From Nitrospirales bacterium (GTDB lineage Bacteria; Nitrospirota; Nitrospiria; Nitrospirales; UBA8639), in assembly GCA_022825885.1 (NCBI GenBank), contig JAJDVY010000008.1:1-37749 (forward strand): a DNA stretch of 37,749 bases. The letters run 5' to 3'. The translations under genes and the position numbers were made by a program. This document shows, one piece after another, positions 14,428-34,737 of this stretch; position 1 is the first letter of the stretch, and every line of letters starts with the position of its first letter. The notes below the pieces were generated by a model that did not search any database, was not told where the DNA came from, and saw only the letters and a list, made by a program, of their open reading frames with translations.

Positions 14428-14583
14428 AAATACAGAGCGATGGCGATCTACTGTATTCATACCGGGTGTTTACATCAAGCATTGCAGGTTGTTCGGCCAA
14501 TCCCGAGTGCCGTCAGAGAGGAAAGGATTCTGATTCCTGGGTTTCATTGACTTGTTTTGAAGCTGCATGATACCGTGCCGGTC

Positions 14584-16080
14584 ATGAAAAAGCCTTGTTA
14601 TTCAATAAGTTTTGACCAATTCCGCCAATTGGCCACTATGGGCAATTTGGTACCGGTCTATCGTGAAATCCTGGCGGACAAGGAAACGCCGGTCAGCGCA
14701 TTTTCAAAAATCAATTCCGGCCAGACGGCGTTTCTGTTTGAGAGCATCGAAGGCGGCGAGCACTGGGCACGATACTCCTTTTTGGGCAGTAGCGCGACAC
14801 AAGTGCTGTGGGAAGAAGACGGCAACCTTTTAGTCAAAAAAGGGCGAAAAACGAAAACTCATCCGTTGGGAGACAACCCATTGGACCATATCCGGGCGAT
14901 CCTGTCCGAGTTTGAGCCGGTCAGGGTATCCGGCCTCCCGCGCTTTGTCGGTGGAGCCGTTGGCTACCTGGGGTATGACGTGGCGCAATTTTTCGAGCCG
15001 ATTCCCGGCTATCCCAAGGATTCGGCCCGCCTGCCCCTGTTTGCCTTCTTCGTCACGGATACGCTTTTGATCTTCGATAACGTGCGGCATACGATCAAAG
15101 TCGTGGCCAATGCCCATATGACGTCTTCTGCAAAATCCGCCGTGAGATCCGCGTACGCGGATGCCACAACCCGGATCGAAAAGATGATTGCGAAGCTCAA
15201 GGCCCCGTTGCGACACCGGCCTTCCTCCGCGCGCCGCCACGTTCCCCGCTTCACCTCCAATGTGACCCGGACCACGTTTGAAAAGATGGTCATGCGGACG
15301 AAGGAATACATTCAGGCCGGTGATATCATCCAGGCCGTGATCTCCCAACGATGGCAGACCAGAATTCGAACTGCTCCCCTGGAAATCTATCGCGCGTTGC
15401 GGGTGATCAATCCTTCGCCGTACATGTTCTATCTCAAGGTGGCGGGAGTTGAATTGGTCGGATCTTCACCGGAAATCCTGGTCCGGTGCGAAGAGGACCA
15501 GGTGGTTGTCCGTCCGATCGCCGGGACTCGAAAACGCGGGGCCACCGTTGCGGAAGACCAGGCATTGGCGAATGAACTATTGGCTGATGCCAAGGAACGC
15601 GCCGAACACGTCATGCTGGTCGATTTGGGACGAAACGACGTCGGCCGCGTCGCACAAACGGGCACGGTCTCGCTGGATCCGTTCATGAAAATCGAACGAT
15701 ACTCTCACGTTATGCACATTGTCTCGCAGATAACGGGCACGTTGTCTCCGGGGAAAGACGCCTATGACGTGATGAAAGCCTGTTTCCCTGCCGGCACGGT
15801 CTCGGGGGCGTCCAAAATTCGCGCCATGCAGATCATCGAAGAACTCGAACCCACGCGACGGGGACCTTATGCCGGCGCCGTGGGGTATTTCAGTTTTTCG
15901 GGCAATATGGATACCTGCATCAATATTCGAACCATTGTCTTTAGAGGCCGGGACGCTTTCATTCAGGCAGGGGCCGGGATCGTCGCCGATTCGGACCCAA
16001 CCAAGGAATACGAAGAAACGTGCAACAAGGCCCGAGCCATGATGCGCAGCATCGAAATGGCCGAAGAAGGGTTGGAATAA
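14584..16080 (+). CDS. trpE: Anthranilate synthase component I
   Basis: TrpE makes anthranilate from chorismate with ammonia delivered by TrpG. The product (498 residues from the ATG at 14584) has the regulatory-site segment [17 protein letters not shown], then the chorismate-binding core: [56 protein letters not shown] and [17 protein letters not shown]. The ATG at 14584 is preferred because family similarity begins with SFDQFRQLA just after it; a TTG at 14557 is also in frame. The 205 bases before it show no Trp-rich leader peptide. It is first in a trpEGDCFBA cluster. Confidence 0.97.
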
Positions 16081-16084
16081 TCCC

Positions 16085-16678
16085 ATGCTGCTCATGATCG
16101 ACAATTATGACTCCTTTACGTACAACCTGGTCCAGTACCTGGGGGAACTGGGCGCAAACATTGAAGTCTATCGAAACGACAAGATCACGGTGGAGGAGAT
16201 CACCGAATTGAATCCGAAACGGATGGTCATCTCTCCCGGTCCGTGTACGCCCAACGAGGCCGGCATTTCCGTGGAGGCAATCCGGCAATTTGCCGGGCGC
16301 GTGCCGCTGTTGGGCGTCTGTCTCGGGCACCAGTCCCTGGCCTTTGCCTTCGGCGGTGAAATCATTCGCGCCGGCCGCCTGATGCACGGGAAAACGTCGT
16401 TGGTCAGGCACGACAATCAAACGATTTTTAAAGGCCTGCCCAACCCGTTCGAAGCCACGCGGTATCATTCACTGATCGTCAACAAGAAAACCTTGCCCGG
16501 CGATTTTGAAATTTCAGCGGAGACGGAGGAAGGCGAAATCATGGGACTCCGGCATCGTCCAACCGGGGCGGAAGGCGTACAGTTTCATCCCGAGTCCGTC
16601 CTCACGAAGACCGGCATGGAGCTATTGCGCAACTTTCTCGAAATCGGATCCGGCAATGGCAAGGGGAAGACGGCATGA
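16085..16678 (+). CDS. trpG: Anthranilate synthase component II (glutamine amidotransferase)
   Basis: TrpG hydrolyses glutamine and channels ammonia to TrpE. The 197-residue class I amidotransferase has [16 protein letters not shown] at the start, [11 protein letters not shown], the nucleophile Cys in [20 protein letters not shown], and His/Glu in [10 protein letters not shown]. It lies 4 bases after trpE and overlaps trpD by 4 bases. Because PabA is nearly identical in sequence type, it may also serve p-aminobenzoate synthesis; no separate pabA is visible in the window. Confidence 0.95.
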
Positions 16679-17694
16679 TCAAAGACGTGCTCACAAAACT
16701 GGTTGACGGCATCAACCTGACGGAAAAAGAAGCCTATGACGTCATGCTGGAAATCATGCAGGGGGCCACGTCCGAATCCCAGATTGCCGCGTACCTCATG
16801 GGCCTTCGGATGAAAGGCGAGACCGTCGAAGAAATCACGGGTTCGGTCAAAGCCATGCGTGAAATGGCCGTGCGGATCCACGTGGGCGATCTCCGGGTCG
16901 TGGATACCTGCGGGACCGGCGGCGACCGATCCAATACCTTCAACATTTCCACCGCAACCGCCTTCGTGGTTGCCGGAGGCGGCATCACGGTTGCCAAGCA
17001 CGGGAACCGGTCGGTGTCTTCGCAATCCGGGAGTGCGGACGTGTTGGCCGCCATGGGCGTCAAAATCGACCTTCCCGCGGAACGCGTGGAAGCCTGCGTT
17101 AATGAAATCGGGATCGGCTTCTTGTTCGCCCCGCTCTATCACGGAGCCATGAAGTATTGCGCGAAACCTCGCGCTGAAATGGGCCTGCGAACGTTGATGA
17201 ACATCATGGGACCGTTATCCAATCCCGCCGGCGCCGGCATCCAAATTTTAGGGGTGTACGATCAGGCTCTGACGGAAAAATTGGCCCGGGTTCTCGTCCG
17301 CTTAGGTACTCAACATTGTTTCGTTCTACACGGCAAGGACGGACTGGACGAAATCACATTGACCGATTTCACTTACGTGTCCGAAGGTAAAGCCGGACGG
17401 ATTTCGAGTTATCACCTGACCCCGGAAGATTTCGGGTTGACCCGGGTGAGGCCGAAAGACCTGCGCGGCGGAACCCCTGAAGACAACGCGGTGATCATCC
17501 AGGAAATTCTGAAAGGCCACCGTCACGCCAGACGAGACGTGGTCCTCATGAATGCCGCCCCGGCATTCGTGGCCTGCGGAAAAGCCAAAAACCTGAAAGA
17601 CGGGTTTGCCCAAGCCGCGAACGCACTGGATAGCGGCGCCGCTTATGAAAAATTTCAACAACTCGTCCGTTTTTCAAATGGGGCGTCCGTATGA
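16675..17694 (+). CDS. trpD: Anthranilate phosphoribosyltransferase
   Basis: TrpD joins anthranilate to PRPP. The 339-residue product has [17 protein letters not shown] (PRPP loop, residues about 77-93), [35 protein letters not shown][21 protein letters not shown] and HGKDGLDEI. Length is standard. Its start overlaps the trpG stop (ATGA), and its own stop overlaps the trpC start (ATGA), so the three genes are translationally coupled. Confidence 0.97.
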
Positions 17695-18545
17695 TTCTGG
17701 ATCGCATCCTGGAACATAAAAAAGCTGAACTCCGCCAAAAAAAAAGCCGCGGATACATGGCCGAACTCAAAGGGAAAATAGCCGATCGTCCCGTGCCGTC
17801 CGGTTTTATCAAAACGTTGGAAGAAGCCCATGCGCCGGGCTCCCCTGCCCTCATTGCGGAAGTCAAAAAGGCCTCACCCAGTCAAGGATTGATGCGCCCG
17901 GAATTTGCCGATCTGTTTGACCCGGTCGTGCTTGCCAACACCTATCAGGAACACGGGGCGTCGGCTGTTTCGGTATTGACGGACCAGGAATTCTTTCAAG
18001 GGCATTTGGACCACATGGCCAGAGTCAAGGACCACGTAGGGCTGCCGGCGTTGAACAAGGAATTCATGATCGACGACATCCAATTCTACGAAGCCCGGGC
18101 ACATGGAGCCGACGCCGTCCTGCTCATCGTGGCGGCCCTAGACCGGATTCAGCTCGAAGATTTCTATTCGACGGCCAAAGGGCTGACGCTCGACGTGCTC
18201 GTGGAAACGCACAATGAATCGGAAGTCGACAGGACCCTGGAACGAATCCCCGACGCGATCCTGATCGGCATCAACAACCGGGACCTCAAAACCTTTTCAA
18301 CCGATCTCTCGGTCACCCAACGGCTGGCCCAACGGATTCCCTCCGGGAAAGTCATCGTCAGTGAAAGCGGAATCCACAAACGCGAAGACGTCGTACAGGT
18401 CCTGGAAGCCGGGGCCAAAGCCATACTGGTGGGTGAATCCCTGGTTCGAGCCGATGACATCGGCGCCAAGATTCAGGACCTCCGGGGAACGGCCGGACAG
18501 GAAGATGACGCCTCGGAGCCCGTTCAAGGGACCCGCTGGATTTAA
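17691..18545 (+). CDS. trpC: Indole-3-glycerol phosphate synthase
   Basis: TrpC closes the indole ring from CdRP. The 284-residue TIM-barrel has LIAEVKKASPSQG (catalytic Lys), ASAVSVLTDQEFFQG, LNKEFMIDDIQFYEARAHGADAVLLI, VETHNESEVD, IGINNRDLKTF and VSESGIHKREDV. The C-terminus is slightly longer than usual, with an acidic tail after residue 265. TrpC and TrpF are separate proteins here, unlike the fused E. coli enzyme. Confidence 0.96.
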   Translation: MILDRILEHKKAELRQKKSRGYMAELKGKIADRPVPSGFIKTLEEAHAPGSPALIAEVKKASPSQGLMRPEFADLFDPVVLANTYQEHGASAVSVLTDQEFFQGHLDHMARVKDHVGLPALNKEFMIDDIQFYEARAHGADAVLLIVAALDRIQLEDFYSTAKGLTLDVLVETHNESEVDRTLERIPDAILIGINNRDLKTFSTDLSVTQRLAQRIPSGKVIVSESGIHKREDVVQVLEAGAKAILVGESLVRADDIGAKIQDLRGTAGQEDDASEPVQGTRWI

Positions 18546-18558
18546 CCGCCTCTCCGGC

Positions 18559-18596
18559 TTCCCCTCCTTTGTAAGGAGGGGCGAGGGGAGGTAGAG
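18559..18596. repeat. Palindromic repeat, family 1, copy between trpC and trpF
   Basis: CCCCTCCTT-TGT-AAGGAGGGG with the tail CGAGGGGAGGTAGAG, nearly the same as the copy at 8439. It sits between two otherwise tightly linked trp genes and again places purine-rich sequence shortly before a start codon (trpF ATG at 18605). Confidence 0.85.
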
Positions 18597-18604
18597 AGTA
18601 GTCC

Positions 18605-19240
18605 ATGGCCCTGCCGAAAATCAAAATTTGTGGCATCACGAACCCGATCGACGCCTTGCAGGCCGTCGACGCGGGCGCCGATGCGCTCGGGTTCGTCTTC
18701 TACAAGAAAAGCCCGCGCCACGTGACCCTGAACGTCGTCAAGTCCATTGTGGTCAATTTGCCGCCATTCGTCTTGCCCATCGGAATCTTCGTCAATGAAG
18801 ACCCTGAAAAGGTGCGTAAGACGATGGATGAATGCGGGTTGGCGCTCGCGCAAATTCATGGAGACGAATCCGCCGAGTATTGTGAATCGCTGGGAAGGCC
18901 GGTTATCCGAGGGATCAGGCTTCGTGACCACAACACCTTGTTTGCCATGGCCGAATACAAGGGACGGTCGCGCGTTCGAGGATTCGTCCTGGACGCATTT
19001 TCAACAACGGCCTATGGAGGTACCGGCCAAACCGCGGACTGGAATCTCGCCACGGAAGCCGCCCAATCGTTTTCTTTTTTGCTGGCAGGAGGGCTCACCG
19101 CGGACAACGTCCAGGAGGCAATCCGAAACGTACGACCCTACGGCGTGGACGTCAGCAGCGGGGTCGAAGCCAGTCCGGGCAAGAAAGATCCAGCCAAAGT
19201 GACAGCCTTCATCCAGGCCGTCAAACTTGTGTCGTCATAA
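18605..19240 (+). CDS. trpF: Phosphoribosylanthranilate isomerase
   Basis: TrpF isomerises PRA to CdRP, the step before TrpC. The 211-residue TIM-barrel has KIKICGIT at the start (catalytic Cys), GADALGFVFYKKSPRHV, PIGIFVNED, QIHGDES, VLDAFSTTAYGGTGQTADW (catalytic Asp), LLAGGLTADNV and GVDVSSGVEASPGKKD. Length is normal. It is 59 bases after trpC and 218 bases before trpB, both gaps being filled by palindromic repeats. Confidence 0.96.
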   Translation: MALPKIKICGITNPIDALQAVDAGADALGFVFYKKSPRHVTLNVVKSIVVNLPPFVLPIGIFVNEDPEKVRKTMDECGLALAQIHGDESAEYCESLGRPVIRGIRLRDHNTLFAMAEYKGRSRVRGFVLDAFSTTAYGGTGQTADWNLATEAAQSFSFLLAGGLTADNVQEAIRNVRPYGVDVSSGVEASPGKKDPAKVTAFIQAVKLVSS

Positions 19241-19297
19241 ATCTGGCCGGTATAGTTCGATCCGTGACCAATATCCCGCATCTCATGCAATGACGCG

Positions 19298-19389
19298 ACC
19301 TCCCCTCCCCCTCCTTACAAAGGAGGGGAATCTGAAAGGAACGGCCTTCTTTCCCTCCCCTTTGTAAGGGGAAGGCAGGAGGGATAGAG
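19298..19389. repeat. Palindromic repeat, family 1, inverted pair between trpF and trpB
   Basis: An inverted copy at 19298-19330 (CCTTACAAAGGAGGGG core, preceded by CCTCCCCTCCC) faces a diverged forward copy at 19350-19389 (CCCTCCCCTTTGTAAGGGG, tail GGGATAGAG). The pair forms a composite, BIME-like unit in the trpF-trpB gap. Confidence 0.8.
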
Positions 19390-19458
19390 ACCAATACAGG
19401 TGAGGTAAGGGCAACGAAGACAACCATAGAGTTTTTCCTCTCAAACGACCAAACAACC

Positions 19459-20652
19459 ATGACACGGATTCGCATGAAACAGAGCCGTTTCGGCAAATAC
19501 GGAGGGCAATATGTTCCCGAGACCCTCATGCCAGCCATCATGGAACTGGAACACGTCTATGCGAAACTTCGGAAGGATCGCAGTTTCCAAAAAGAATTTC
19601 ACGAATACCTCAAACAATACGTGGGGCGTCCGACGCCGCTGTACTTTGCCAAACAACTGACCAGGACGTTGGGCGGGGCCAAGATCTATCTCAAGCGAGA
19701 GGACCTCTGTCATACCGGCGCGCACAAGATCAACAACACCGTAGGTCAGGCATTGCTGACCAGACGCATGAAGAAACGGCGAATCATCGCGGAAACCGGC
19801 GCCGGGCAACACGGCGTCGCGGTTGCGACCATCGCCGCCATGTTCGGGTTGGAAGCGGAAGTCTACATGGGGACGGAAGACATGGCCCGCCAAGCGCTCA
19901 ACGTGTTTCGCATGCGATTGCTTGGAGCCAAAGTCACCGGCGTAGACGCGGGCAGCCGGACCCTCAAGGACGCGATCAGCGAAGCGATGCGGGATTGGAC
20001 GACAAACGTACGGACCACGCATTACCTGTTGGGCTCCGTGCTGGGCGCGCATCCCTACCCGATGATGATCCGCGATTTCCAATCGGTGATCGGACGAGAA
20101 GCACGGCGACAAATCCTGGCCGCCGAAAGGAAGCTCCCCCATTGCCTCGTGGCCTGCGTGGGAGGCGGCAGCAACAGCATCGGCCTGTTCTACCCGTTCA
20201 TCAAGGATACCCGAACGCAGATGGTCGGGGTGGAAGCCGGCGGCATGGGTTTGACCAGCGGCAAACATGCGGCTCGTTTTGCCGGCGGCGTGCCGGGCGT
20301 GCTTCATGGAACCATGACCTATCTGCTCCAGGACCGGCACGGGCAAGTCAACGGCACGCACTCGGTGTCAGCCGGGTTGGATTATCCCGCAGTCGGCCCT
20401 GAACACGCCATGCACCATGACTCGGGCCGCATACGGTACACCTCGGCGACCGACCAGGAAGCCTTGGAGGCCTTCGACCTCTTGTCCCAGGAAGAAGGGA
20501 TTATTCCAGCCCTGGAAAGCGCGCATGCCGTGGCGGAAGTCATCAAGCAGGCGCCGAAGATGAAAAAAAACCACATCCTGATCATGAACCTGTCCGGACG
20601 CGGGGATAAAGACGTTGACCAGATTGCCCGGATGCGGGGTATCCAGGTTTGA
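19459..20652 (+). CDS. trpB: Tryptophan synthase beta chain
   Basis: TrpB condenses indole with serine using PLP. The 397-residue product begins [15 protein letters not shown] soon after the start and has [34 protein letters not shown] (PLP lysine), [20 protein letters not shown], the phosphate-binding [15 protein letters not shown] and NLSGRGDKD. This is the standard TrpB1 type that pairs with TrpA, as its sequence and the 4-base overlap with trpA indicate. Confidence 0.97.
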
Positions 20653-21470
20653 CTCCATCGGCTTCTTCCAATCGTATCTCTGCCACCTTTGACCGTCTTC
20701 GCCGGCAAGGGGAAAAGGCGCTGATCCCCTATATCATGGCCGGGGATCCTTCATTGGCTGATACGGAAAACATGGTGGTGGCCTTGGAAAACGCCGGAGC
20801 CGATCTGATTGAAATCGGCGTCCCGTTTTCCGATCCCATTGCCGACGGACCCGTGATCCAAAAAGCCGCCGAACGGGCGTTGCGGACGGGCACCTCGTTG
20901 CGCGGCATTCTACAGAGCGTCAAAACCTTGCGAACCAAAACTCAAGTACCGCTCATCCTGATGACGTACTACAATACCATCATGGCCATGGGGGAACGGG
21001 AATTCTGTCATGAAGCGGTTCGAGCCGGAGTCGATGGGGTCATTATTCCGGACATGCCTCCCGAAGAAGCTGAACTGTTGCAACAAGCCTCCGCGGCAAA
21101 CGGTCCGTGCCTGATCTTTCTTCTCGCACCGACGAGCACCGAGTCCAGAAGAGCCGAAGTGATCAAACGCACCAATGGATTCATCTATTACGTGTCAATT
21201 ACCGGAATCACCGGGGCGAAACTGCGGGACAAAGACTCCATCAAACGCAACGTGCGCGCGCTTCAAAAGAAAGCCAAAAAACCCGTCGCCGTGGGGTTCG
21301 GCATTGCCACTCCCGACGATGCCCGGCACATTGCGGCTTTTTCGGACGGCGTCATCGTCGGCAGTGCCCTCGTCCGAAAAATAGAAGAATTCCAACATTC
21401 CACTGATTTGGTTCCGGAAATCAGCCGGTTCACGGCCAGCCTGAAAGCCGCACTCTCCGATTCGTGTTGA
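20649..21470 (+). CDS. trpA: Tryptophan synthase alpha chain
   Basis: TrpA splits indole-3-glycerol phosphate and passes indole to TrpB. The 273-residue TIM-barrel has [31 protein letters not shown] (catalytic Glu and Asp), [32 protein letters not shown] and [15 protein letters not shown]. The start is a TTG that overlaps the trpB stop (TTGA), typical of coupling. The last 3 codons overlap the start of the next gene. Confidence 0.96.
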
Positions 21471-22973: not shown

Positions 22974-23588
22974 ATGAACGATTTGCTCACGGAAGAAGTG
23001 CGAACATGGAGAAAGCCGAACTACGACGTCCATCCTCTTATTGTGAACCGGTGGTCCCCCCGTTCGATGACCGGTGAGGAATTATCCGATGATGAACTCA
23101 TGCCGCTGTTTGAGGCGGCTCGCTGGGCTCCGTCGTCGAATAACGCGCAACTGTGGCGATTCGTTTTCGCGAAACGGCAGACGCCGTTCTGGGAAACGTT
23201 CGTGGATTTGCTGGCTGACGGCAATAAAGTATGGGCCCGGCAAGCGGCCGTATTGGTTGTTGTCACGTCCAGAACGCTCTTTGAACGTCATGACAAACCC
23301 GCAGTCACGTATGCCTTTGATGCCGGTGCGGCATGGGAAAATCTGGCGCTGGAGGGGACGCGTCGGGGGTTCGTCGTACACGGGATGCAAGGATTCGATT
23401 ATGAACGGGCCAGGGAAGCACTGCACGTACCTGACCGGTACGACGTCCTGGCCATGATTGCCATTGGGAAACGCGCACCCAAGGAATCCTTGCCCCCTCA
23501 TCTTCAAGAGAGAGAGCAGCCCAATGACCGGCGCCCGTTGACTGAAATCATTGTGCCCGGCCGGTTCGGAAATGAAGAAAACCCTTAA
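22974..23588 (+). CDS. Nitroreductase family protein
   Basis: This family uses FMN and NAD(P)H to reduce nitro groups, quinones or other substrates. The 204-residue product has RWSPRSMTGEELSDDELM and ARWAPSSNNAQLWRFVF, the typical FMN-binding start (R-S-x, A-P-S-S-x-N-x-Q-x-W), then DAGAAWENLALEGTRRGFVVH and AMIAIGKRAP. A good AAGGAG sits 9 bases before the ATG. It follows the NFACT gene by 52 bases and is the last gene before the urea operon promoter. The substrate cannot be predicted. Confidence 0.88.
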   Translation: MNDLLTEEVRTWRKPNYDVHPLIVNRWSPRSMTGEELSDDELMPLFEAARWAPSSNNAQLWRFVFAKRQTPFWETFVDLLADGNKVWARQAAVLVVVTSRTLFERHDKPAVTYAFDAGAAWENLALEGTRRGFVVHGMQGFDYERAREALHVPDRYDVLAMIAIGKRAPKESLPPHLQEREQPNDRRPLTEIIVPGRFGNEENP

Positions 23589-23634: not shown

Positions 23635-23663
23635 TTGACTTTTGAAATCTATTCCGATATAAG
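23635..23663 (+). promoter_or_regulatory. Sigma70-type promoter of the porin-urt-ure operon
   Basis: TTGACT (23635-23640), a 17-base spacer and TATAAG (23658-23663): five of six matches in each box with ideal spacing. The predicted start near 23670 gives a leader of about 185 bases that carries the hairpins and terminator described next. Confidence 0.7.
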
Positions 23664-23687
23664 CCTCCAACCATAAGACGACGCGGC

Positions 23688-23785
23688 TGGGAAACGAAGA
23701 TGTTTCCCATGCCCGCCTTTAAGCATGAACAAGGACATTGACGTCCTTTTGGTTTGCAGTTCGGACCAGAAGGGCGTTTTTTTTT
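23688..23785 (+). promoter_or_regulatory. Putative ANTAR-type (NasR/NasT-like) antitermination leader
   Basis: Hairpin P1: TGGGAAAC (23688-23695), loop GAAGAT, GTTTCCCA (23702-23709). Hairpin P2: AAGGAC (23731-23736), loop ATTGAC, GTCCTT (23743-23748). Both loops are six bases. The ANTAR-target consensus is two hexaloop hairpins with A at loop position 1 and G at position 4; P2 meets both, P1 has G at 4 but G at 1. The 3' arm of P2 is also the 5' arm of the intrinsic terminator at 23741-23785, so P2 and the terminator exclude each other. By analogy with NasR, NasT and EutV systems, a phosphorylated or ligand-bound ANTAR protein would stabilise P1-P2 and permit read-through into the urea genes. 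No ANTAR gene is in the window. The analogy is inference; the structures are seen. Confidence 0.65.
23741..23785 (+). terminator. Intrinsic terminator inside the urea-operon leader
   Basis: ACGTCCTTTTGGT (23741-23753) pairs over 13 continuous base pairs, including two G-U, with ACCAGAAGGGCGT (23765-23777), with an 11-base loop, and is followed by nine T (23777-23785). It precedes the porin gene rather than following one, so it is an attenuator. A second long-range pairing, GTTCGGAC (23759-23766) with GTCCCGAAC (23806-23814, one bulge), could compete with it. Confidence 0.8.
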
Positions 23786-23853
23786 GATTTCTTTGCTCTT
23801 TGGGAGTCCCGAACTTTGGAAATTCGCTTCTGACATGAAAAGGACATATATCG

Positions 23854-25053
23854 ATGAATAGACGCACATACACCACATTCGGCATCGTTCTCTTCGTGAC
23901 GTTGTCGGTCGCATTGCCTGCGTTTGCCGGTCCAAAATTCGAATTCGGTGATGACCAATGGCTGAGTATTGGGGCCGGAGCACGCGTCCATTTCTTCGCA
24001 CAGGAGGATCATGCAGCGGATGGAGAGAATTGGAGTAAGCATTTTGGGTTGGAGAATATGCGGCTCTATGTAAATGGACAAATCCACAAGTATCTGAAAA
24101 TCGAATTCAACACGGACTGTACGGATTGTCTCGGCGATAACAGCAAAGGCACGATGATCGTCCTCGACGCCATCGGCAAATTCGAGTTCAATCAATACGT
24201 CAACATCTGGGCCGGCCGGCAGTTGGTTCCATCAGACCGCGCCGAACTGGACGGGCCCTACTTCCAAAACACCTTCGACTTCAACAAGACCCCGTTCTAC
24301 CCGTCGGATTTCGGCAACTTTGTGGCGGGCCGGTTCGGCCGCGACGACGGAGTCAACCTCTGGGGAGCCTTCTTCGAAGACAAGCGGTTGACCTACGTCG
24401 TTGGGGTATTTGACGGAGTTGATCATACGACAAGCCAACGACACCGGCCGAATACGAGCGACAATCTGCTCTGGGCGGGCCGCGTGAGCTACAACTTTTG
24501 GGACGTTGAACAAAACCCCGGTTATTACACCAGCAGCACCTATTACGGTAAGGGCGGAGACATCCTCACTCTTTCTTTTGCCGTCCAACGCCACGAAGAC
24601 GGGGCCGGCACGGCCGAGGACCAATCGGATTTCACCGGCTACAGCACCGATCTGTTGATGGAAAAAATCCTGCCGAACAACGGTGTCCTCACCTTGGAAG
24701 GTGAATACAAGGTCTTCCAAACCGGTTTGACAACAACCGCCCTCAATGATCCTAATTGTTTCTGCCTGTTCGACGGAGATTCCTGGACGGCGACGGGGCT
24801 CTATCTTTTCCCTGACAAATTGGGGATCGGACAATTACAGCCCTACGTTCGTTACACGGCGAACAATCCCGACTTCAGCACCAGCCGGAGTGAAATCGAA
24901 TTCGGCACGAATTACATCATCGACGGACACAACGCCAAAATCGCGCTGTTTTACCAATATGGCGACATCGCCACAAAAGGACGCAACTGGACGCCGGGTG
25001 TGACCGGTGACGACGTCGGCGTCATCAAGCTGGCCCTTCAATGGCAGATCTAG
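23854..25053 (+). CDS. Outer-membrane porin of the urea operon (FmdC/OprO-P-like)
   Basis: The 399-residue product has a clear signal peptide (MNRRTYTTFGIVLFVTLSVA, cleavage after AFA near 25) and then alternating amphipathic strands typical of a beta-barrel, ending in ALQWQI, a suitable C-terminal BAM signal. Features such as ENMRLYVNGQIHKYLKIEFN, AGRQLVPSDRAELDGPYFQN and FVAGRFGRDDGVNLWG resemble phosphate-selective-porin-like proteins and short-chain amide porins (FmdC) that accompany urea and amide genes. It begins the urea operon, 68 bases before urtA, so passage of urea or short amides through the outer membrane is the natural inference. Specificity is not proven by sequence. Confidence 0.8.
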   Translation: MNRRTYTTFGIVLFVTLSVALPAFAGPKFEFGDDQWLSIGAGARVHFFAQEDHAADGENWSKHFGLENMRLYVNGQIHKYLKIEFNTDCTDCLGDNSKGTMIVLDAIGKFEFNQYVNIWAGRQLVPSDRAELDGPYFQNTFDFNKTPFYPSDFGNFVAGRFGRDDGVNLWGAFFEDKRLTYVVGVFDGVDHTTSQRHRPNTSDNLLWAGRVSYNFWDVEQNPGYYTSSTYYGKGGDILTLSFAVQRHEDGAGTAEDQSDFTGYSTDLLMEKILPNNGVLTLEGEYKVFQTGLTTTALNDPNCFCLFDGDSWTATGLYLFPDKLGIGQLQPYVRYTANNPDFSTSRSEIEFGTNYIIDGHNAKIALFYQYGDIATKGRNWTPGVTGDDVGVIKLALQWQI

Positions 25054-25120: not shown

Positions 25121-26482
25121 ATGAATACACGACTCGCTCCTGAGACCCAAAAGACAGAGAACTCGCTCGAACACGCACCCGCGAAAAGCCGTCGTCAATT
25201 TTTCACGGACGCCGGGAAGACTGCGGCAGGATTCGGCATCGCGGCCCTTCTGGGCAACCTGGGAAATTACGCGCTGTCCTATGCCGCGGACAAAGAACCC
25301 ATTAAAATCGGCATCCTGCATTCGTTGAGCGGCACGATGGCCATCAGCGAAGTTTCACTGAGAGACGTCGTACTGATGGCGGTTGAGGAAATCAACGCCG
25401 CGGGCGGAGTCCTCGGCAGGATGATCGAACCCGTTGTGGTCGATCCCGCGTCGAATTGGGATTTATTTGCGGAAAAAGCCAAACAACTCCTCATGGTCGA
25501 CAACGTGGCCGTGACGTTCGGCTGTTGGACGTCCGTGAGCCGAAAATCCGTCCTCCCCGTGTTTGAAAGCAACAACGGATTGCTGTTTTATCCCGTGCAA
25601 TACGAGGGCGAAGAATGTTCGCGCAACGTGTTCTACACCGGAGCCGCGGTCAACCAACAGGCCGTTCCCGCGGTTGACTATCTGATGAGCGAAGAAGGCG
25701 GAGGATACAAAAAGTTCTATCTGTTGGGAACGGATTACGTCTATCCCAGAACTACGAACAAGATTTTGCGGGCGATGTTGCTCGCCAAGGGCGTCCCCGC
25801 TTCGGACATCGGCGAAGAATACACCCCGTTCCACCACCAGGACTATCAAACCATTGTCAGCACAATCCGGCAATTTGCCCGTCGCGGAGACGCAGCCGTG
25901 ATCAGTACGATCAACGGTGACAGCAACGTGCCGTTCTACAAAGAATTCGCCAATCAGGGCCTCCGGTCCGAAGACGTTCCCATCATGGCCTTTAGCGTCG
26001 CCGAAGATGAACTTCGCAGCATGGACACCACCGCATTGATCGGACATCTGACTGCCTGGAATTACTTCCAAAGCATCGAGTCTCCCGGAAATAAAAAATT
26101 CGTGAGCGACTTTAAATCCTATTGCAAGAAAAATGGCCTGCCCGGCGGCGCGCAACGAGTCACCGATGATCCCATCGAAGCCGCCTATTTCGGAGTTCAC
26201 GTCTGGAAACGGGCCGTGGAAAAAGCCGGACAAACGGACGTGGACGCCGTGCGAAAAGCCGTGTACGGATTAGAATTCGATGCACCCGGCGGCAAGAAAA
26301 AGATGGACGCGATCAACCATCATACGCACAAACCGGTGCTCATCGGCGAGATTCGCAAGAACGGGCAGTTTACGATCATTTCGGAAACCGGCCTGGTCCG
26401 GCCCGAACCCTGGAGTGAATATACCAATCCGGAAAAAGGCTGCGATTGGGTCAACCACAAGGGCACCTACAAGAAAGCCTGA
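25121..26482 (+). CDS. urtA: Urea ABC transporter, substrate-binding protein
   Basis: UrtA captures urea in the periplasm for the high-affinity UrtABCDE importer. The 453-residue product has a twin-arginine-like signal (SRRQFF at 23-28, then a hydrophobic stretch to about residue 52), which suggests Tat export. The mature part has IKIGILHSLSGTMAISE, GRMIEPVVVDPASNWDLF, VTFGCWTSVSRKSVLPVFE, GLLFYPVQYEGEECSRNVFY and SEEGGGYKKFYLLGTDYVYP, all characteristic of UrtA/AmiC-like type I binding proteins. An AGAGAGG lies just before the ATG. It is followed by urtB after 97 bases. Confidence 0.95.
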   Translation: MNTRLAPETQKTENSLEHAPAKSRRQFFTDAGKTAAGFGIAALLGNLGNYALSYAADKEPIKIGILHSLSGTMAISEVSLRDVVLMAVEEINAAGGVLGRMIEPVVVDPASNWDLFAEKAKQLLMVDNVAVTFGCWTSVSRKSVLPVFESNNGLLFYPVQYEGEECSRNVFYTGAAVNQQAVPAVDYLMSEEGGGYKKFYLLGTDYVYPRTTNKILRAMLLAKGVPASDIGEEYTPFHHQDYQTIVSTIRQFARRGDAAVISTINGDSNVPFYKEFANQGLRSEDVPIMAFSVAEDELRSMDTTALIGHLTAWNYFQSIESPGNKKFVSDFKSYCKKNGLPGGAQRVTDDPIEAAYFGVHVWKRAVEKAGQTDVDAVRKAVYGLEFDAPGGKKKMDAINHHTHKPVLIGEIRKNGQFTIISETGLVRPEPWSEYTNPEKGCDWVNHKGTYKKA

Positions 26483-26579
26483 AGCGTTGCGGCTCGGGGC
26501 CGGCCTTCGACTCCGAGCCCATTCGCACGTTCGCGAACAATCCAAACGTCAGATGGCCCCATTCACGAAACGCAGCATC

Positions 26580-28121
26580 ATGAAACTATCGCTTATCCCT
26601 GTTTTATCCGTGTGGCTTCTCCTCTTTTCAGGATCTCCGGTGAGCCTGGCAACGGCGCAAGAACCGCCATTAACGCCACCTGAAGTCATGGCGGCGCAAA
26701 AAGCCATAACCGCGCTGCAGGAAGGTCCGTGGTCCGACAAGAAACTGGCAGCCGGCTATCTTTTGAAAAACGGGGATCCTGCCCTGCTTCCTCAACTTGA
26801 AGAACTTCGCTCGAATACGAACCGGCGTGTTCGCAGATTGCTGAAACCCGTCATCAACCTGCTCAAAAACAAGGCCGGTCTCGCCAGCCCGGACAGGGAG
26901 ACTCGCCGCGCCGCGGCCAGGGACCTTGGTGCGCGAGGAACACCGGAGGCCCTCCCCGTCCTCAAAGAAGCGTTGTCCCATGAAAAAGAGCACTGGGTTC
27001 GATATGACCTGGAAGAAGCCATTCACTTGCTTAACCTGGACAGTCACGACCCTCAAGTAAAATTTACGGCCATTCGGAAACTGGGCGACATGCGCAGTAG
27101 CGCGGCCCTGCCGGTTTTGCAGGACTTGACAACGCAACAAGCCAACAATCTCGAACAGCAGACACTCAAGGATGAAGCGGAAAAAGCCAGACGCCGGATA
27201 CAGAAATGGCAAGACGTCACCCAGGGCGTCGAAATGCTGCTGCAAGGACTGAGCCTTGGGTCCATCCTCCTCCTCATGGCCCTGGGGCTGGCCATTGTGT
27301 TCGGTCTCATGGGCGTCATCAACATGGCCCATGGGGAAATGATGATGATCGGAGCCTACGCCACGTTCGTGGTTCAGGAAACGTTCAGAATGTATTTAGG
27401 CGAACACCTCTTTGATTATTATTTCTTCTTTGCCCTCCCCTGCGCTTTTGTCGTTGCGGCCGTCATCGGCTGGGTCCTGGAAGGAACGCTCATCCGGTTC
27501 CTCTATGGAAGGCCCCTTGAGACGTTACTCGCCACCTGGGGCGTCGGGCTTGTCCTGATTCAAACCGCCCGTCTCATTTTCGGCGACCTCACGGCGGTCC
27601 AGGCCCCAAGCTGGCTCAGGGGCGGCGCACAGATTGTCGTCGGCGTGCAACTGCCTTACAACCGGCTCTTCATCATCTTGTTGGCCTTGTTCAGCGTCGC
27701 CGGCATTTATCTCCTGTTGTTTCGAACGGGCATCGGCCTGCGGGTCCGTGCCGTCTTGCAGAATCGGGACATGAGCGCCTGTTTGGGCATCCCAACCAGG
27801 AAGTTGGATGCGTATACTTTTGCCTTCGGCTCAGGCCTGGCAGGCTTGGCCGGCAGCGCCCTGACCATGGTTGGGAACGTCGATCCGGAACTCGGGCGGA
27901 ATTACATCGTGGATTCATTTATGGTCGTCGTCGCCGGTGGGGTGGGAAAACTTGCCGGAACGATTACGGCCGCGTTCGGGATCGGCACCCTCAATAAACT
28001 GTTGGAGCCCGGGTTCGGCGCCGTCTACGGCAAAGTGATCATTCTCGTCCTCATCATTCTCTTCCTTCAGGTCCGGCCTTCCGGCCTCTTTGCGTTGAAG
28101 GGACGACACCTTGACTCCTGA
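26580..28121 (+). CDS. urtB: Urea ABC transporter, permease subunit UrtB
   Basis: UrtB is one of two inner-membrane permeases of the urea importer. The product (513 residues from 26580) starts with a signal-like segment (MKLSLIPVLSVWLLLFSGSP), then an extra periplasmic helical-repeat region (about 35-200: ARDLGARGTPEALPVLKEAL and AIRKLGDMRSSAALPVLQDL look HEAT-like), as found in long UrtB proteins, then the LivH-type membrane domain with GLAIVFGLMGVINMAHGEMM and GGVGKLAGTITAAFGIG. The open frame reaches back into urtA, but ATG 26580 gives the expected signal peptide; ATG 26553 is possible. It overlaps urtC by 11 bases. Confidence 0.93.
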   Translation: MKLSLIPVLSVWLLLFSGSPVSLATAQEPPLTPPEVMAAQKAITALQEGPWSDKKLAAGYLLKNGDPALLPQLEELRSNTNRRVRRLLKPVINLLKNKAGLASPDRETRRAAARDLGARGTPEALPVLKEALSHEKEHWVRYDLEEAIHLLNLDSHDPQVKFTAIRKLGDMRSSAALPVLQDLTTQQANNLEQQTLKDEAEKARRRIQKWQDVTQGVEMLLQGLSLGSILLLMALGLAIVFGLMGVINMAHGEMMMIGAYATFVVQETFRMYLGEHLFDYYFFFALPCAFVVAAVIGWVLEGTLIRFLYGRPLETLLATWGVGLVLIQTARLIFGDLTAVQAPSWLRGGAQIVVGVQLPYNRLFIILLALFSVAGIYLLLFRTGIGLRVRAVLQNRDMSACLGIPTRKLDAYTFAFGSGLAGLAGSALTMVGNVDPELGRNYIVDSFMVVVAGGVGKLAGTITAAFGIGTLNKLLEPGFGAVYGKVIILVLIILFLQVRPSGLFALKGRHLDS

Positions 28122-29247
28122 ATCTTCTTTCACGTCGCGCCTTGCAAGCGCGGCCGCTCACACGGGAGCAGGTCCCGCGTTCTGGATCGCGGGAGCGATC
28201 CTGTTCGCAGGCGTGCCCCTGCTCAATTCGCTGCCCGATGATTCGTTTTTTCACGTTTCCGACTTTACCTTGAACCTGTTGGGAAAATTTTTTGCATTTG
28301 CCATTTTAGCGCTGGGGATCGACCTGATTTGGGGCTATACCGGCGTCTTGAGTTTGGGCCACGGCGTGTTTTTCGGGCTGGGAGCCTATGCCATGGGGAT
28401 GCACCTGATGCTGGGAATCGGAACGGAGGGCGTCTATGGCAATGCTCTTCCCGACTTTATGGTGTGGAACCAGGTTGAAGAGCTTCCCTGGTTTTGGAAA
28501 CCGTTTTACAGCCTGACGTTTTCATTGGCCGCCATTGTATTGGTGCCGATGGCCGCTGCGGCAACGTTCGGATACGTTGTCTTCCGCAGCAGGATTCGCG
28601 GCGTGTATTTTTCCATCATCACGCAAGCACTCGCGCTCGTCGCCTGGCTGGTCTTCAACCGCAATGAAACCAACTTGGGTGGAACGAACGGGTTGACCGA
28701 TTTCAAGCACATTCAGGGATTCTCCTTGAATGAACCCTCAACCCAGCTCGTCATGTACATGGTGACCATCCTGTTCCTGGGTTTGGCCTACGTGCTCTGC
28801 CGGTGGATTACCCAATCCCGGACGGGACGCGTCCTCATCGCCATTCGTGATTGTGAACAACGCGTGTTTTTTTCCGGGTATTCACCCGCAAGTTACAAGC
28901 TGTTTGTCTTTGTCGTCTCAGCCGGGTTGGCCGGACTCGCCGGCGCGCTCTACGTCCCGCAGGTCGGCATTATCACGCCCAATCAAATAGGCGTCCTGCC
29001 TTCGATCGAGATGGTCATCTGGGTGGCCGTGGGAGGGCGAGGCACCCTGTCCGGCGCCATTATCGGCGCAGCGGGCGTCAACTTCATGCGCAGTACGTTG
29101 ACCAACCATTTTCCCGAACTCTGGCCCTTTTTCCTGGGCGGGCTGTTCATCGCCGTGGTCATGTTCTTCCCCAAAGGAATCGTGGGATTACTCAGGAAGG
29201 CGTCAGGGATGATTCCTTCAAGAAAACCGAACAGCGAACGCGCGTGA
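28111..29247 (+). CDS. urtC: Urea ABC transporter, permease subunit UrtC
   Basis: UrtC is the second permease (LivM type). The 378-residue product has about ten hydrophobic helices and the motifs IDLIWGYTGVLSLGHGVFFG, LGAYAMGMHLML, RGVYFSIITQALALVAWLVF, GGTNGLTDFKHIQGF and VWVAVGGRGTLSGAIIGA (start read as IWVAV). The start is TTG at 28111, inside the end of urtB, indicating coupling. The stop overlaps the GTG start of urtD (GTGA). Confidence 0.94.
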   Translation: MTPESSFTSRLASAAAHTGAGPAFWIAGAILFAGVPLLNSLPDDSFFHVSDFTLNLLGKFFAFAILALGIDLIWGYTGVLSLGHGVFFGLGAYAMGMHLMLGIGTEGVYGNALPDFMVWNQVEELPWFWKPFYSLTFSLAAIVLVPMAAAATFGYVVFRSRIRGVYFSIITQALALVAWLVFNRNETNLGGTNGLTDFKHIQGFSLNEPSTQLVMYMVTILFLGLAYVLCRWITQSRTGRVLIAIRDCEQRVFFSGYSPASYKLFVFVVSAGLAGLAGALYVPQVGIITPNQIGVLPSIEMVIWVAVGGRGTLSGAIIGAAGVNFMRSTLTNHFPELWPFFLGGLFIAVVMFFPKGIVGLLRKASGMIPSRKPNSERA

Positions 29248-30098
29248 ACGGCCGACTGACTCATGCCATGAACGAAAGCCCGTCAACCCCCAGAGCAATA
29301 GCCGGTGAACGAAAAGTCATCGGTTCCCGGCATCAACGGTCGATCATTTACTTGGACAACGTGACGGTTGATTTCGACGGGTTTAAAGCGTTGAATCAAC
29401 TCAACCTGATCGTGGACTATCACGAACTCCGCGTCGTAATCGGACCCAACGGCGCAGGCAAGAGTACGTTGCTGGACGTGATCTCAGGGAAAGTCCGGCC
29501 GGTATCCGGCCGTGTGGTATTCGGTCAGGCAACGGACCTGATCGGTCTGCGGGAACATCACATTGCGGCATTGGGCATTGGCCGAAAATTCCAGACCCCT
29601 TCGGTCTATACGACCCTGCCCGTATGGGACAATCTCGATCTGTCGCTCCGTCGAAAAAACAAAGGGGTTGTCGCCACGTTGTTCTCCAAGCTGAATTCAG
29701 AAGAATCGGATAAAATCGCCCGGACCCTGGAGGCCATCGGACTGACCAAGAAATCCCAAGTGCTTGCCGGCCAACTCTCGCACGGCGAAAAGCAATGGCT
29801 GGAAATCGGCATGGTCCTCCTCCAAGACCCCGAACTGCTCCTCATCGATGAACCCGTTGCGGGCATGACGGAACAGGAAACGGAAAAAACCGGCGAACTG
29901 CTGCAATCTCTTACGGATACCCATTCCCTTATCGTCATCGAACATGATATGGAATTCGTCAGGCAGATTGCGAAGACGGTCACGGTTCTGCATGAAGGCA
30001 CCGTGCTGTGCGAAGGGTCCGTGGAGAATATCCAAAACGATCCCCGCGTGATCGAAATCTATCTGGGTCGACACAAAGAAACCGATGCTCCGGTGTGA
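29244..30098 (+). CDS. urtD: Urea ABC transporter, ATP-binding protein UrtD
   Basis: UrtD is one of two cytoplasmic ATPases (LivG type). The 284-residue product has a roughly 30-residue N-terminal extension, then IYLDNVTVDFDGFKALNQL, Walker A GPNGAGKST, GRKFQTPSVYTTLPVWDNL (Q-loop), the signature LSHGEKQWLEIGM, Walker B LLLIDEPVAGMTEQE and the switch His in VIEHDMEFV. LSHGEKQ is typical of UrtD. The start is either GTG 29244 or ATG 29268. It overlaps urtE by 14 bases. Confidence 0.95.
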   Translation: MNGRLTHAMNESPSTPRAIAGERKVIGSRHQRSIIYLDNVTVDFDGFKALNQLNLIVDYHELRVVIGPNGAGKSTLLDVISGKVRPVSGRVVFGQATDLIGLREHHIAALGIGRKFQTPSVYTTLPVWDNLDLSLRRKNKGVVATLFSKLNSEESDKIARTLEAIGLTKKSQVLAGQLSHGEKQWLEIGMVLLQDPELLLIDEPVAGMTEQETEKTGELLQSLTDTHSLIVIEHDMEFVRQIAKTVTVLHEGTVLCEGSVENIQNDPRVIEIYLGRHKETDAPV

Positions 30099-30795
30099 CG
30101 CACTCAACGTGTTCTATGGGGAAAGTCATATCCTGCGGGATATTTCCATCGACGTGCCCGCCGGTCAGGTCGTTTGCCTCATGGGACGAAACGGCGTAGG
30201 AAAGACGACCCTGCTCAAAACCGTCATGGGCCTGCTCAAACCGCAGAGCGGACACGTCTATCTCCATGACGAAGACGTGACCGGGACATCACCCGATCAA
30301 CGAGTGAGCCGCGGCATCGCGTACGTACCACAGGGTCGTGAACTGTTTCCACATTTGACGGTCGAAGAAAATCTCCGATTGGGATTTGAAGCCCGCCAAG
30401 GCCCCCAGGATTCAAAAACATCGGAGTCGGCCTATAATGAAGTGTATACGCTCTTTCCGGCTCTACCCGCACTACTCGGCCGTCCGGGAGGCGTCCTCAG
30501 CGGCGGGCAACAGCAACAGGTCGCCATCGCCAGGGCCTTGCTGACGCAACCCAAACTTTTGCTGCTGGATGAACCGACGGAAGGCATCCAGCCCTCGATC
30601 GTCATCGATATCGAACGCGTCATCGAAGGCTTTAAAAATCAACGCCGGTTCGCTATCTTGTTGGTGGAACAATACTTTGAATTTGCGGCGCGCTTGGCCG
30701 ACACGGTTGTGCTCATGGCCAAAGGCGCCGTGGTGGCATCGGGACCCGTTTCTGAATTAACGGAAGAAACGGTCAAACAGCATCTGGTGGTATGA
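30085..30795 (+). CDS. urtE: Urea ABC transporter, ATP-binding protein UrtE
   Basis: UrtE is the second ATPase (LivF type). The 236-residue product has LNVFYGESHILRDISIDVPA, Walker A GRNGVGKTT, YVPQGRELFPHLTVEENLRLG (Q-loop), the signature LSGGQQQQVAIARAL, Walker B LLLLDEPTEGIQPSI and LLVEQYFEFA. GRNGVGKTT and DEPTEGIQPSI are characteristic of UrtE. It is 3 bases from ureA, so the transporter and urease genes form one operon. Confidence 0.95.
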   Translation: MLRCDALNVFYGESHILRDISIDVPAGQVVCLMGRNGVGKTTLLKTVMGLLKPQSGHVYLHDEDVTGTSPDQRVSRGIAYVPQGRELFPHLTVEENLRLGFEARQGPQDSKTSESAYNEVYTLFPALPALLGRPGGVLSGGQQQQVAIARALLTQPKLLLLDEPTEGIQPSIVIDIERVIEGFKNQRRFAILLVEQYFEFAARLADTVVLMAKGAVVASGPVSELTEETVKQHLVV

Positions 30796-30798
30796 ACC

Positions 30799-31101
30799 AT
30801 GCACCTCAGCCCAAGAGAACAAGAGAAACTCCTGATTTACGTCGCAGGACAACTTGCGAAAGACCGGAAAGCCCGCGGACTGAAGCTCAATCATCCCGAG
30901 GCCGTCGCGTACATTACCGCCGCAATACTTGAAGGCATTCGGGATGGCCGCTCCGTCTCGGACCTGATGAGTGATGGAGCCACCCTGTTGACGAGAGAGG
31001 ACGTCATGGCCGGGGTACCGGAAATGTTGCCGGAAATCCAAGTGGAAGGCACCTTTCCCGATGGAACAAAGCTGGTGACCGTCCATAATCCCATCCGATA
31101 A
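30799..31101 (+). CDS. ureA: Urease subunit gamma
   Basis: The 100-residue product [20 protein letters not shown]...[18 protein letters not shown] with [20 protein letters not shown] is the gamma subunit of nickel urease, at the usual length. It forms the (ABC)3 trimer with UreB and UreC. It is separate from ureB, as in most bacteria, and is the first urease gene after urtE. Confidence 0.97.
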
Positions 31102-31113: not shown

Positions 31114-31626
31114 ATGCCCGCCAAACGATCTTCTTCCTCAAAAAACCCCGAACGCTCACGGGCCTCCACTCCGGCAAAGAGCGCAAAAACGACAAAGCCG
31201 GTGAAGTCCAAACAAAACGCTTCTCGTGCGACCGAAGGTGTCCCTCTCATTCCCGGCGAAATCATATTGGGTACGGGTGACATCGTCGCCTTGGCCGGCC
31301 GTCAGACTCTGACTGTGACCGTGACAAACCATGGTGACCGGCCCATTCAGGTGGGCTCGCATTGCCATTTCTTTGAAGTGAATCGCGCCTTGCGATTTCC
31401 AAGAGAACAAGCGTTCGGTTTTCGACTCAACGTCCCGGCCGGCACCGCCGTCCGCTTCGAACCGGGAGAAGAGAAACGCGTCACGCTCGTGGCCCTTGGA
31501 GGAAACCGGATTGTCCACGGCATCAACGGCTTGACCAACGGAGCACTCGATAAGGCCCGGGTCAAGGCCCGGGCTCTCAAGCGCGCCGCCGCACTGGGGT
31601 TTTTGGGAGAAGGAAACGTCCGATGA
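31114..31626 (+). CDS. ureB: Urease subunit beta with basic N-terminal extension
   Basis: The beta-subunit core starts near residue 43 with [15 protein letters not shown] and has [51 protein letters not shown] and [11 protein letters not shown]. The product is 170 residues, against about 101-110 in many bacteria. The extra parts are a Lys/Ser/Ala/Thr-rich, probably disordered N-terminus of about 42 residues and a basic C-terminal helix ([20 protein letters not shown]). Its stop overlaps the ureC start (ATGA). The first ATG at 31114 is kept because an internal start close to VPLIPGEI is not available. Confidence 0.95.
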
Positions 31627-33350
31627 AGATACCGCGCCGTCAATATGTGGATCTATTCGGTCCGACCGTGGGCGATCGAATCCGCCTAGCCGATACCGAG
31701 TTGCTCGTGGAGGTCGAACGGGACCTGACAACACCCGGCGAGGAAGCCAAGTTCGGCGGAGGGAAAGTCATCCGGGATGGAATGGGGCAATCGCCGACGG
31801 CCACGCGTACCGGTGGTTCTTTGGACGTCGTCATCACCAATGCCGTCATTCTCGATTATTGGGGGATCGTCAAAGCGGACGTCGGCATTCGAGACGGACG
31901 TATCGTCGCAATCGGAAAAGCCGGCAACCCGGACCTGATGTCGGGCGTTTCACCGGGCATGACGATTGGACCCGGCACGGAAGTCATCGCAGGGGAAGGA
32001 AAAATCGTGACGGCCGGGGGCGTTGAAAGCCACGTGCATTTCATTTGTCCGCAACTCATTCAGGAAGCCTTGTCCTCGGGGATGACCACCCTGCTGGGCG
32101 GCGGAACGGGGCCGGCTACCGGCACCAACGCCACAACCTGCACCCCCGGCGCTTGGAATATCGGTCGCATGTTGGAGAGTGCGGACGGGTTTCCGGTCAA
32201 CCTCGGTTTTCTGGGAAAGGGAAACGCCTCTCTCCCGAAAGCGCTGGTCGAGCAAGTGCAAGCGGGTGCCATCGGTCTGAAGCTGCACGAGGATTGGGGA
32301 ACGACGCCGTCCGCCATCTCAACGTGTCTGGACGTCGCGGATGACTATGACGTGCAAGTCGCCATTCACACGGATACGTTGAACGAGGCAGGCTTCGTGG
32401 ATGACAGCATTCGAGCGTTCGGAGGACGAACCATTCATACCTTCCACACCGAAGGGGCCGGAGGCGGCCATGCCCCGGACATCATCCGGGTTTGCGGGGA
32501 ATCGAACGTCCTGCCGTCTTCAACCAACCCGAGCATGCCGTTTACGGTGAATACCATTGATGAACATCTCGACATGCTCATGGTGTGTCATCACTTGAGC
32601 CCCCGCGTCCCCGAAGACATTGCATTTGCCGAATCACGCATTCGCGGCGAAACCATTGCCGCGGAAGACATTCTTCACGACATGGGTGCCATCAGCATCA
32701 TATCGTCGGACTCTCAAGCCATGGGGCGCATCGGTGAAGTCATCGTGCGAACGTGGCAGACCGCCCACAAGATGAAAGTCCAACGAGGACATTTGAGCCC
32801 GCGGGGCGTTCACCCGGTCACGAAACAACATGACAACTTCCGAGCCAAGCGCTACGTCGCCAAATACACCATTAATCCGGCCATCACCCATGGCATCGCA
32901 TCGGAAGTCGGATCGGTGGAAGTCGGGAAATTGGCCGACCTCGTGATCTGGAACCCGGCGTTCTTCGGGGTCAAACCCGATCTCGTCGTCAAGGGAGGTT
33001 TTTTGGTGGAAGCCGCGATGGGTGACCCCAATGCCTCTATTCCCACGCCGCAACCGGTCTTGAGCCGTCCCATGTTCGGGGCCTGGGGGAAAGCCCTCTT
33101 CAGCACAAGCGTGACGTTTCTGTCACAGGCCGGGATCGACCGCCGGATTCCCGAACAACTCGGTTTGCAAAAACGGGTCGCCGCCGTCCGGAATTGCCGC
33201 CGCATCGGCAAACGCGACCTGAAACTGAACGACGCCACGCCCAACATCGAAGTGGACCCTGAAACCTACGTGGTAAAAGCCGACGGTCAACGCTTGACCT
33301 GCGAACCCATGGCCGTTCTGCCCATGGCCCAGCGATATTTTTTATTTTAG
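31623..33350 (+). CDS. ureC: Urease subunit alpha (catalytic)
   Basis: UreC holds the dinuclear nickel site that hydrolyses urea to ammonia and carbamate. The 575-residue product has all active-site elements: the first nickel histidines in [10 protein letters not shown] (about 137 and 139), the carbamylated Lys in [12 protein letters not shown] (about 220), His in [12 protein letters not shown] (about 249), His in [13 protein letters not shown] (about 275), the flap Cys in [10 protein letters not shown] (about 322) and Asp in SSDSQAMGR (about 362). YFLF is the usual end. Everything indicates an active enzyme. Confidence 0.98.
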
Positions 33351-33371
33351 CGTTTCGTGCATGACCGCCGG

Positions 33372-34074: not shown

Positions 34075-34737
34075 ATGCACCTTGTTGAACATTTGCCCGG
34101 CGGCGGAACACCCGTCACGCGACCAGGGCACGTCACGGTCATTGGCATCGGGGGCCCGGTCGGTTCAGGCAAAACGGCCCTTGTCGAATCCTTATCTCGT
34201 GTACTGCAATCCCGCATCCAACTTGCGGTCGTGACAAACGACATTTTCACGAAAGAGGACGCCGAGTTTCTGACAAGACGAGGCGTGTTGCCCGAGGAAC
34301 GGATTCTCGGCGTTGAAACCGGCGGCTGCCCCCATACGGCCGTCCGCGAAGATGCCTCCCATAATCAAAGCGCCATCCAGGAACTGATCGACCGGATCCC
34401 CGGTTTGAAACTGGTCTTTTTGGAAAGCGGGGGCGACAATCTGGCAGCCACCTTCAGTCCCGACCTTGTGGATGACGTCATCTACGTCATCGACGTGGCG
34501 GCCGGAGACAAAATTCCCCGAAAAGGCGGACCGGCTATCACCCGATCAGGACTCCTCGTCATCAATAAGATCGACCTGGCCCCGCACGTCGGCGCCGACC
34601 TCGCCGTTATGGATCGGGACAGCCGTCTCATGCGGGGAGAACGACCGTTCGTGTTCACCAACCTCCACTCGGGTGAAGGACTCGGTCAGGTGGCGGAATG
34701 GGTGGAACACCACGTCCGTTCACGCGCCTCAAGCTGA
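34075..34737 (+). CDS. ureG: Urease accessory GTPase UreG
   Basis: UreG is the GTPase that delivers nickel to urease. The 220-residue product has P-loop [12 protein letters not shown] (about 26-37), [13 protein letters not shown], the metal-binding Cys-Pro-His in [48 protein letters not shown] and [14 protein letters not shown]. All expected motifs are intact. There is a short His-poor N-terminus, so the His-rich nickel store seen in some UreG proteins is absent. Confidence 0.97.

Follow-up and report, generated by a model that had tools for sequence, protein, structure and literature searches.

In the AmiC-AmiR system of the Pseudomonas amidase operon, ANTAR antitermination operates ahead of genes that free ammonia from a urea-like compound. 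The main text of the Ramesh 2012 survey places ANTAR-target RNAs ahead of P-II genes, of ammonium, urea, nitrate and nitrite transporter genes and of nitrite reductase genes; Nitrospira is not named in that main text (PMC3369931). The known set of such RNAs was described in a 2021 paper as coming from Firmicutes and Proteobacteria (PMC8164766). GAF-ANTAR was named as a subclass in the text of the 2012 paper, which states that no member had been characterized (PMC3369931). A 2020 paper on NasR counted only two characterized one-component ANTAR members, PAL (PAS-ANTAR-LOV) being one (PMC7496416); as we read it, the second is NasR itself (NIT-ANTAR). In the open-access papers searched, none linked ANTAR or antitermination to Nitrospira, none gave RNA targets of GAF-ANTAR proteins and none presented a characterized member of the GAF-ANTAR class. 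Nitrite-oxidizing and comammox Nitrospirales, mostly uncultured, are little studied, also in how they time their use of urea and other nitrogen.

Here, 37,749 nucleotides of DNA from a Nitrospirales bacterium (the window) were analysed. The leader ahead of its porin-urt-ure operon is very probably an ANTAR-type transcription-antitermination leader, in which a protein that stabilizes the second hairpin would release the operon. An earlier reading of the sequence alone knew of no description of such an operon in Nitrospira-like bacteria. ANTAR leaders on nitrogen genes, including urea transporters, have been known since 2012; what appears to be undescribed is the regulon in Nitrospirales, together with its sensor of tandem GAF domains.

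Anatomy of the leader and its operon

A sigma-70-like promoter was located at 23635-23663 on the + strand from sequence and conservation, with a -35 element TTGACT (23635-23640), a 17-nt spacer and a -10 element TATAAG (23658-23663). The stock promoter scan demands T at the last position and therefore misses it. From the promoter position, transcription is predicted to start at about 23670. Hairpin P1 (23688-23709, + strand; folding, scanning and covariation) reads GGGAAAC-GAAGAT-GTTTCCC, a stem of 7-8 bp (eight pairs with the flanking T-A counted) with G at positions 1 and 4 of the hexaloop at 23696-23701. Hairpin P2, the putative antiterminator (23731-23748, + strand; folding and scanning), reads AAGGAC-ATTGAC-GTCCTT, with a 6 bp stem and a hexaloop at 23737-23742 that carries A at position 1 (A1) and G at position 4 (G4). 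The intrinsic terminator (23740-23785, + strand) has a stem at 23740-23778 of 17 contiguous pairs, G-T pairs allowed, and then nine T at 23777-23785; its z score against shuffles is -6.4. Its 5' arm takes in the 3' arm of P2, and P2 and the terminator are mutually exclusive folds.

ANTAR targets are defined by two tandem hexaloop hairpins, each of at least 3 bp, by G4 in both loops, by the linker and by a P2 3' arm within an intrinsic terminator, and each of these is found here. The P1-P2 linker of 21-22 nt in the window (16-37 nt across the order) exceeds the 5-12 nt of eut leaders, a point against the reading, but lies inside the range of 2-25 nt used for actinobacteria (PMC8164766). A1 is present in P2 and P1 has G instead; in most other leaders both hairpins carry A1. 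When the leader was re-read, folded and scanned, the elements named in the sequence-only reading were recovered, namely the promoter, both hexaloop hairpins, the arm shared between P2 and the terminator, the departure from A at the first position of the P1 loop and the run of nine T; only the terminator stem, given there as 13 bp, proved slightly longer.

The fold with P1 and the terminator has a calculated energy of -34.3 kcal/mol versus -17.7 kcal/mol for P1 with P2, so that the terminator state is better by about 17 kcal/mol. Termination is thus the default, with help required for read-through. In 2 of 5000 dinucleotide shuffles a relaxed layout (hexaloops with R1 and G4, stems of at least 4 pairs, a terminator of at least 8 pairs starting in the P2 3' arm, and T5) arose by chance. 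An Rfam search at the leader gave sub-threshold matches only, with no family at its threshold.

Downstream, the porin gene and urtABCDE-ureABCFGD are tightly packed on the + strand. The first gene, at 23854-25053, encodes an outer-membrane porin with a weak, below-cutoff match to an ExtI-type porin. It is followed by urtA for the substrate-binding protein of the urea ABC transporter (25121-26482; TIGR03407, above cutoff), urtB (26280-28121 as called, the true start probably lying after the urtA stop; TIGR03409), urtC (28111-29247; TIGR03408), urtD (29244-30098; TIGR03411) and urtE (30085-30795; TIGR03410). The urease genes are ureA (gamma, 30799-31101), ureB (beta, 31114-31626), ureC (alpha, 31623-33350), ureF (33357-34070; PF01730), ureG (34075-34737; TIGR00101) and ureD (34744-35655; PF01774). 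Terminators and promoters inside the operon were not above shuffle level. An Rfam match to the 5'ureB sRNA (91 bits; window 31769-32067, minus strand, antisense to ureC) probably reflects conserved coding sequence and not an sRNA. Upstream of the leader, the window holds an ordinary tryptophan biosynthesis cluster (14557-21470, anthranilate synthase to trpA), then a gene for an NFACT-type protein and one for a nitroreductase-family protein (22974-23588).

Conservation across Nitrospirales

A survey of 80 urtA neighbourhoods from named genomes showed an equivalent leader before the urt genes in some 20 further Nitrospirales genomes (L002-L007, L010, L012, L013, L016-L018, L026, L044, L047, L051, L056, L059, L066 and L070, among others). 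By title, the leader-bearing records come from MAGs of Nitrospira, Nitrospirales or Nitrospirota, and one carries the label Nitrosospira; SB0662_bin_26 and bin75 are examples of the closest MAGs. Of 26 urt leaders, 24, including that of the window, have a TTGACA/T-17/18-TATA promoter whose distance to P2 is nearly fixed at 58-81 nt.

In an alignment of 38 leaders (alignment A1), which includes those of nadE and focA/nirC, all six pairs of P1 show changes on both sides. P1 pairing holds in 96% of cells compared with 37-54% when the partners are slid, a figure that leans high since the rows were in part picked for the P1 hairpin. Independent support comes from the nine urt loci outside the set used to build the covariance model, which match it at E <= 6.4e-5 (E-values from a shortened calibration). 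The P2 stem GGAC/GTCC is invariant, as expected if its pairing is required in two structures, and the inner terminator diverges yet remains paired. In every folded P2-terminator site (urt, nadE, focA/nirC and activator leaders) the GTCC of P2 also opens the terminator. The linker sequence is not conserved. Hence the hairpins and terminator, whose conservation had been proposed as a check, do recur in orthologous leaders, with compensatory changes in P1. The promoter is retained with them and puts the start upstream of P1, and not downstream of 23785, the placement that had been named as speaking against the reading.

Across the leaders G4 is always present and A1 mostly so. The G1 of P1 in the window, where A is standard, departs from the consensus and counts against the reading; it is found in eight of the nine urt leaders of the window's genus and also in other genera. 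Mutations of A1 impair EutV control in vivo (PMC3369931); in the crystal structure of EutV, no specific contact to A1 is seen (PMC8934654).

Several variants were seen around the urt leaders. The congeners L002, L003, L005, L006 and L007 carry an extra hairpin, GGAAAC-AACGGT-GTTTCC, some 80-90 nt after the terminator and before the porin start, with A1 and G4 in its loop (G1 in L003); the window is without it. In four records from other Nitrospira (L027, L030, L041 and L055), P1-P2 and a weak or imperfect terminator precede two genes that lie just before porin-urtA; in L030 these encode a dCache-PAS histidine kinase and a LuxR-type response regulator. At G041:C204:31824-33047 the urtA frame is broken by two in-frame stops and the leader is intact.

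The GAF-GAF-ANTAR protein and its candidate regulon

The window's genome encodes exactly one ANTAR protein, a GAF-GAF-ANTAR protein of 422 aa (L001:427-1695; PF03861, 73 bits), far from the urt operon; no NIT, receiver or pseudo-receiver ANTAR regulator was found in this genome, and thus none of NasR or NasT type. The sequence-only reading had invoked the logic of NasR, NasT and EutV: this stands for the leader, but not for the type of regulator, which is a one-component protein. It had also proposed a search for an ANTAR gene, and the one that was found adjoins another copy of the leader. Of 60 relatives, 51 have a single ANTAR copy per genome, and 20 aligned orthologues share 60-94% identity with the protein. 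R142, K149, E160 and M172 of EutV hold G4 and plug the loop (PMC8934654). These four contacts and K143, N173 and R175 are identical in the ANTAR protein, and K147 is replaced by R and Y164 by F; against the reading, R168 is replaced by Q and R177 by S. The best PDB sequence relatives of the first GAF domain include PtsP-type and NifA-like GAF domains, which may serve as a lead, no more, towards nitrogen-status sensing.

Leader and ANTAR gene occur together across genomes. The leader pattern is present in 43 of the 51 ANTAR-bearing relatives and in none of the nine without an ANTAR gene (Fisher, 1.6e-6). When only genomes with UrtA are counted, so that presence of the operon has no effect, the leader occurs in 12 of 12 relatives with the ANTAR gene (including G014, where it is weak, and G008, where leader and urtA are on separate contigs) and in 0 of 7 without it (Fisher, 2e-5). 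A second set of 50 genomes, drawn from the urtA neighbours, gave 27 of 34 versus 1 of 16 (1e-6), and the held-out loci alone gave 8e-4; the two sets partly overlap and relatives are not independent, so these figures are inflated by relatedness. Both states are found within genus g12, in which G038 has the ANTAR gene and leaders and five others have neither. As to exceptions, L051/G094 (a 1.9 Mb genome) has a strong leader and no detected ANTAR protein, possibly owing to an incomplete assembly, and seven ANTAR-bearing genomes are without a strong urt leader.

The second leader copy lies directly after the ANTAR gene, ahead of nadE-glnD; in the window's genus this leader has no clear P1. A strict search for the P2-terminator pattern in the window's genome returned the urt leader, the nadE-glnD leader and one match inside a carboxylase-like coding stretch (C32), which was taken as chance. 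The covariance model added a third leader ahead of a gene for a NifA/NtrC-like sigma-54 activator that adjoins a nitrate-type ABC transporter. Scores like that of the activator leader recur across the genus, and one that was read (L177) precedes the same kind of activator. Leaders in other genera stand ahead of formate/nitrite transporter and nitrite reductase genes, and also at clusters containing porin, ammonium transporter, P-II, glnD and glutamine synthetase genes.

The third leader is at C48:9649-9712 on the minus strand, with the activator at L182:8230-9675; the activator has no recognized sensor domain and is divergent from the transporter. The P2 of this leader has a 7-base loop (AATGAAC), as does that of the focA/nirC leader in L180. 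In L085, L086 and L106 two consecutive terminators separate the ANTAR gene from nadE, with GCAC-GANGAT-GTGC hairpins and G1 loops, and the ANTAR orthologues of these records have D for N at the position of EutV N173.

The earlier proposal that urea use is set by antitermination at the RNA level is thereby supported as to antitermination, but the leader belongs to a small regulon and not to a device for urea only, and this wider regulon points to general nitrogen status rather than urea as the cue. At slightly less than even odds, one GAF-GAF-ANTAR protein, common to the whole order, is the main nitrogen-acquisition switch in Nitrospirales. It would control urea uptake and urease, nadE-glnD, the transport of nitrite and of ammonium and nitrite reductase through RNA antitermination, and further genes through the leader-controlled NifA/NtrC-like activator. 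If so, no ANTAR regulator with tandem GAF domains would have had a defined RNA regulon before it.

Mechanism, alternatives and described systems

In the proposed mechanism, RNA polymerase would start near 23670 and, when the regulator is absent, the terminator at 23740-23778 would capture the P2 3' arm and end transcription at U9, before porin-urt-ure. The active GAF-GAF-ANTAR protein, presumably as a dimer, would bind the hexaloops of P1 and P2 and keep P2 closed, so that the polymerase passes. The same protein would also act on the nadE-glnD leader and on that of the NifA/NtrC-like sigma-54 activator, and urea use would be one branch of a regulon for nitrogen acquisition. What the GAF domains sense is likely to be nitrogen status, with 2-oxoglutarate, glutamine, another small ligand or redox state as candidates, and not necessarily urea.

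ANTAR binding might instead favour termination, or act on translation or RNA stability. The sign of control is not readable from sequence, and in actinobacteria, where such control has been proposed for some ANTAR RNAs, ANTAR protein-RNA complexes have been described as acting at translation or transcription termination (PMC8164766). We consider this very improbable, however: P2 and the terminator strictly exclude each other in every folded site, and about 70 nt separate the end of the U tract from the porin start, which leaves the ribosome site uncovered by P2. It is very unlikely that the stem at 23740-23785 is a mere terminator of the upstream nitroreductase gene, or a constitutive attenuator, with incidental hexaloops. 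The intrinsic terminator is indeed strong and the upstream gene ends at 23588, but the conserved promoter between them places the terminator inside a new transcript and rules out a terminator of that gene; moreover, P1 is kept by compensatory change though it has no role in termination, the loop letters and GGAC/GTCC of P2 are retained while the remaining terminator diverges, and the leaders track the ANTAR gene. A riboswitch, in which the leader itself binds urea, ammonium or glutamine with no protein, would use a comparable logic of alternative terminator and antiterminator folds; it is extremely unlikely given that no Rfam family matches, that P1 and P2, both small hairpins with hexaloops, have no conserved junction or pocket and are joined by an unconserved linker, and that the presence of the leader tracks that of a protein gene. 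Attenuation through a translated leader peptide was rejected, as the ATG-started 13-codon frame in the window (MFPMPAFKHEQGH), which ends inside the P2 loop, has no conserved counterpart, in frame or peptide, in other leaders.

With ANTAR antitermination as the preferred reading, Nitrospirales probably control how they acquire nitrogen once transcription has been initiated, by halting the polymerase or letting it pass. Given a named regulator with its RNA sites and a short target list, this is testable in vitro with purified parts, with no need to grow or engineer the organism, and genomes that are without both protein and leaders form a natural comparison set. The analysis also supplies candidate RNA targets for the GAF-ANTAR class.

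The leaders of EutV/EutW (ethanolamine operon; Enterococcus faecalis eutP) resemble that of the window in the dual hexaloop P1-P2 arrangement, in G4 and the A1 of P2, and in a P2 3' arm common with the intrinsic terminator, and most RNA-contact residues are kept in the protein. They differ from it in that the regulator here is a GAF-GAF-ANTAR protein without a receiver domain, P1 has G1, the linker is 21-22 nt as against 5-12 nt, and the targets are genes for the acquisition of urea and other nitrogen. Likewise, NasR (nasF leader, Klebsiella) and NasS-NasT provide ANTAR antitermination before nitrogen-assimilation operons, but NasR senses nitrate by a NIT domain and NasT, of receiver-ANTAR type, is held by NasS, architectures that were not found in the window's genome. 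AmiR, in turn, is a pseudo-receiver protein held by AmiC, whereas the candidate regulator here is a one-component GAF protein encoded far from the urt operon.
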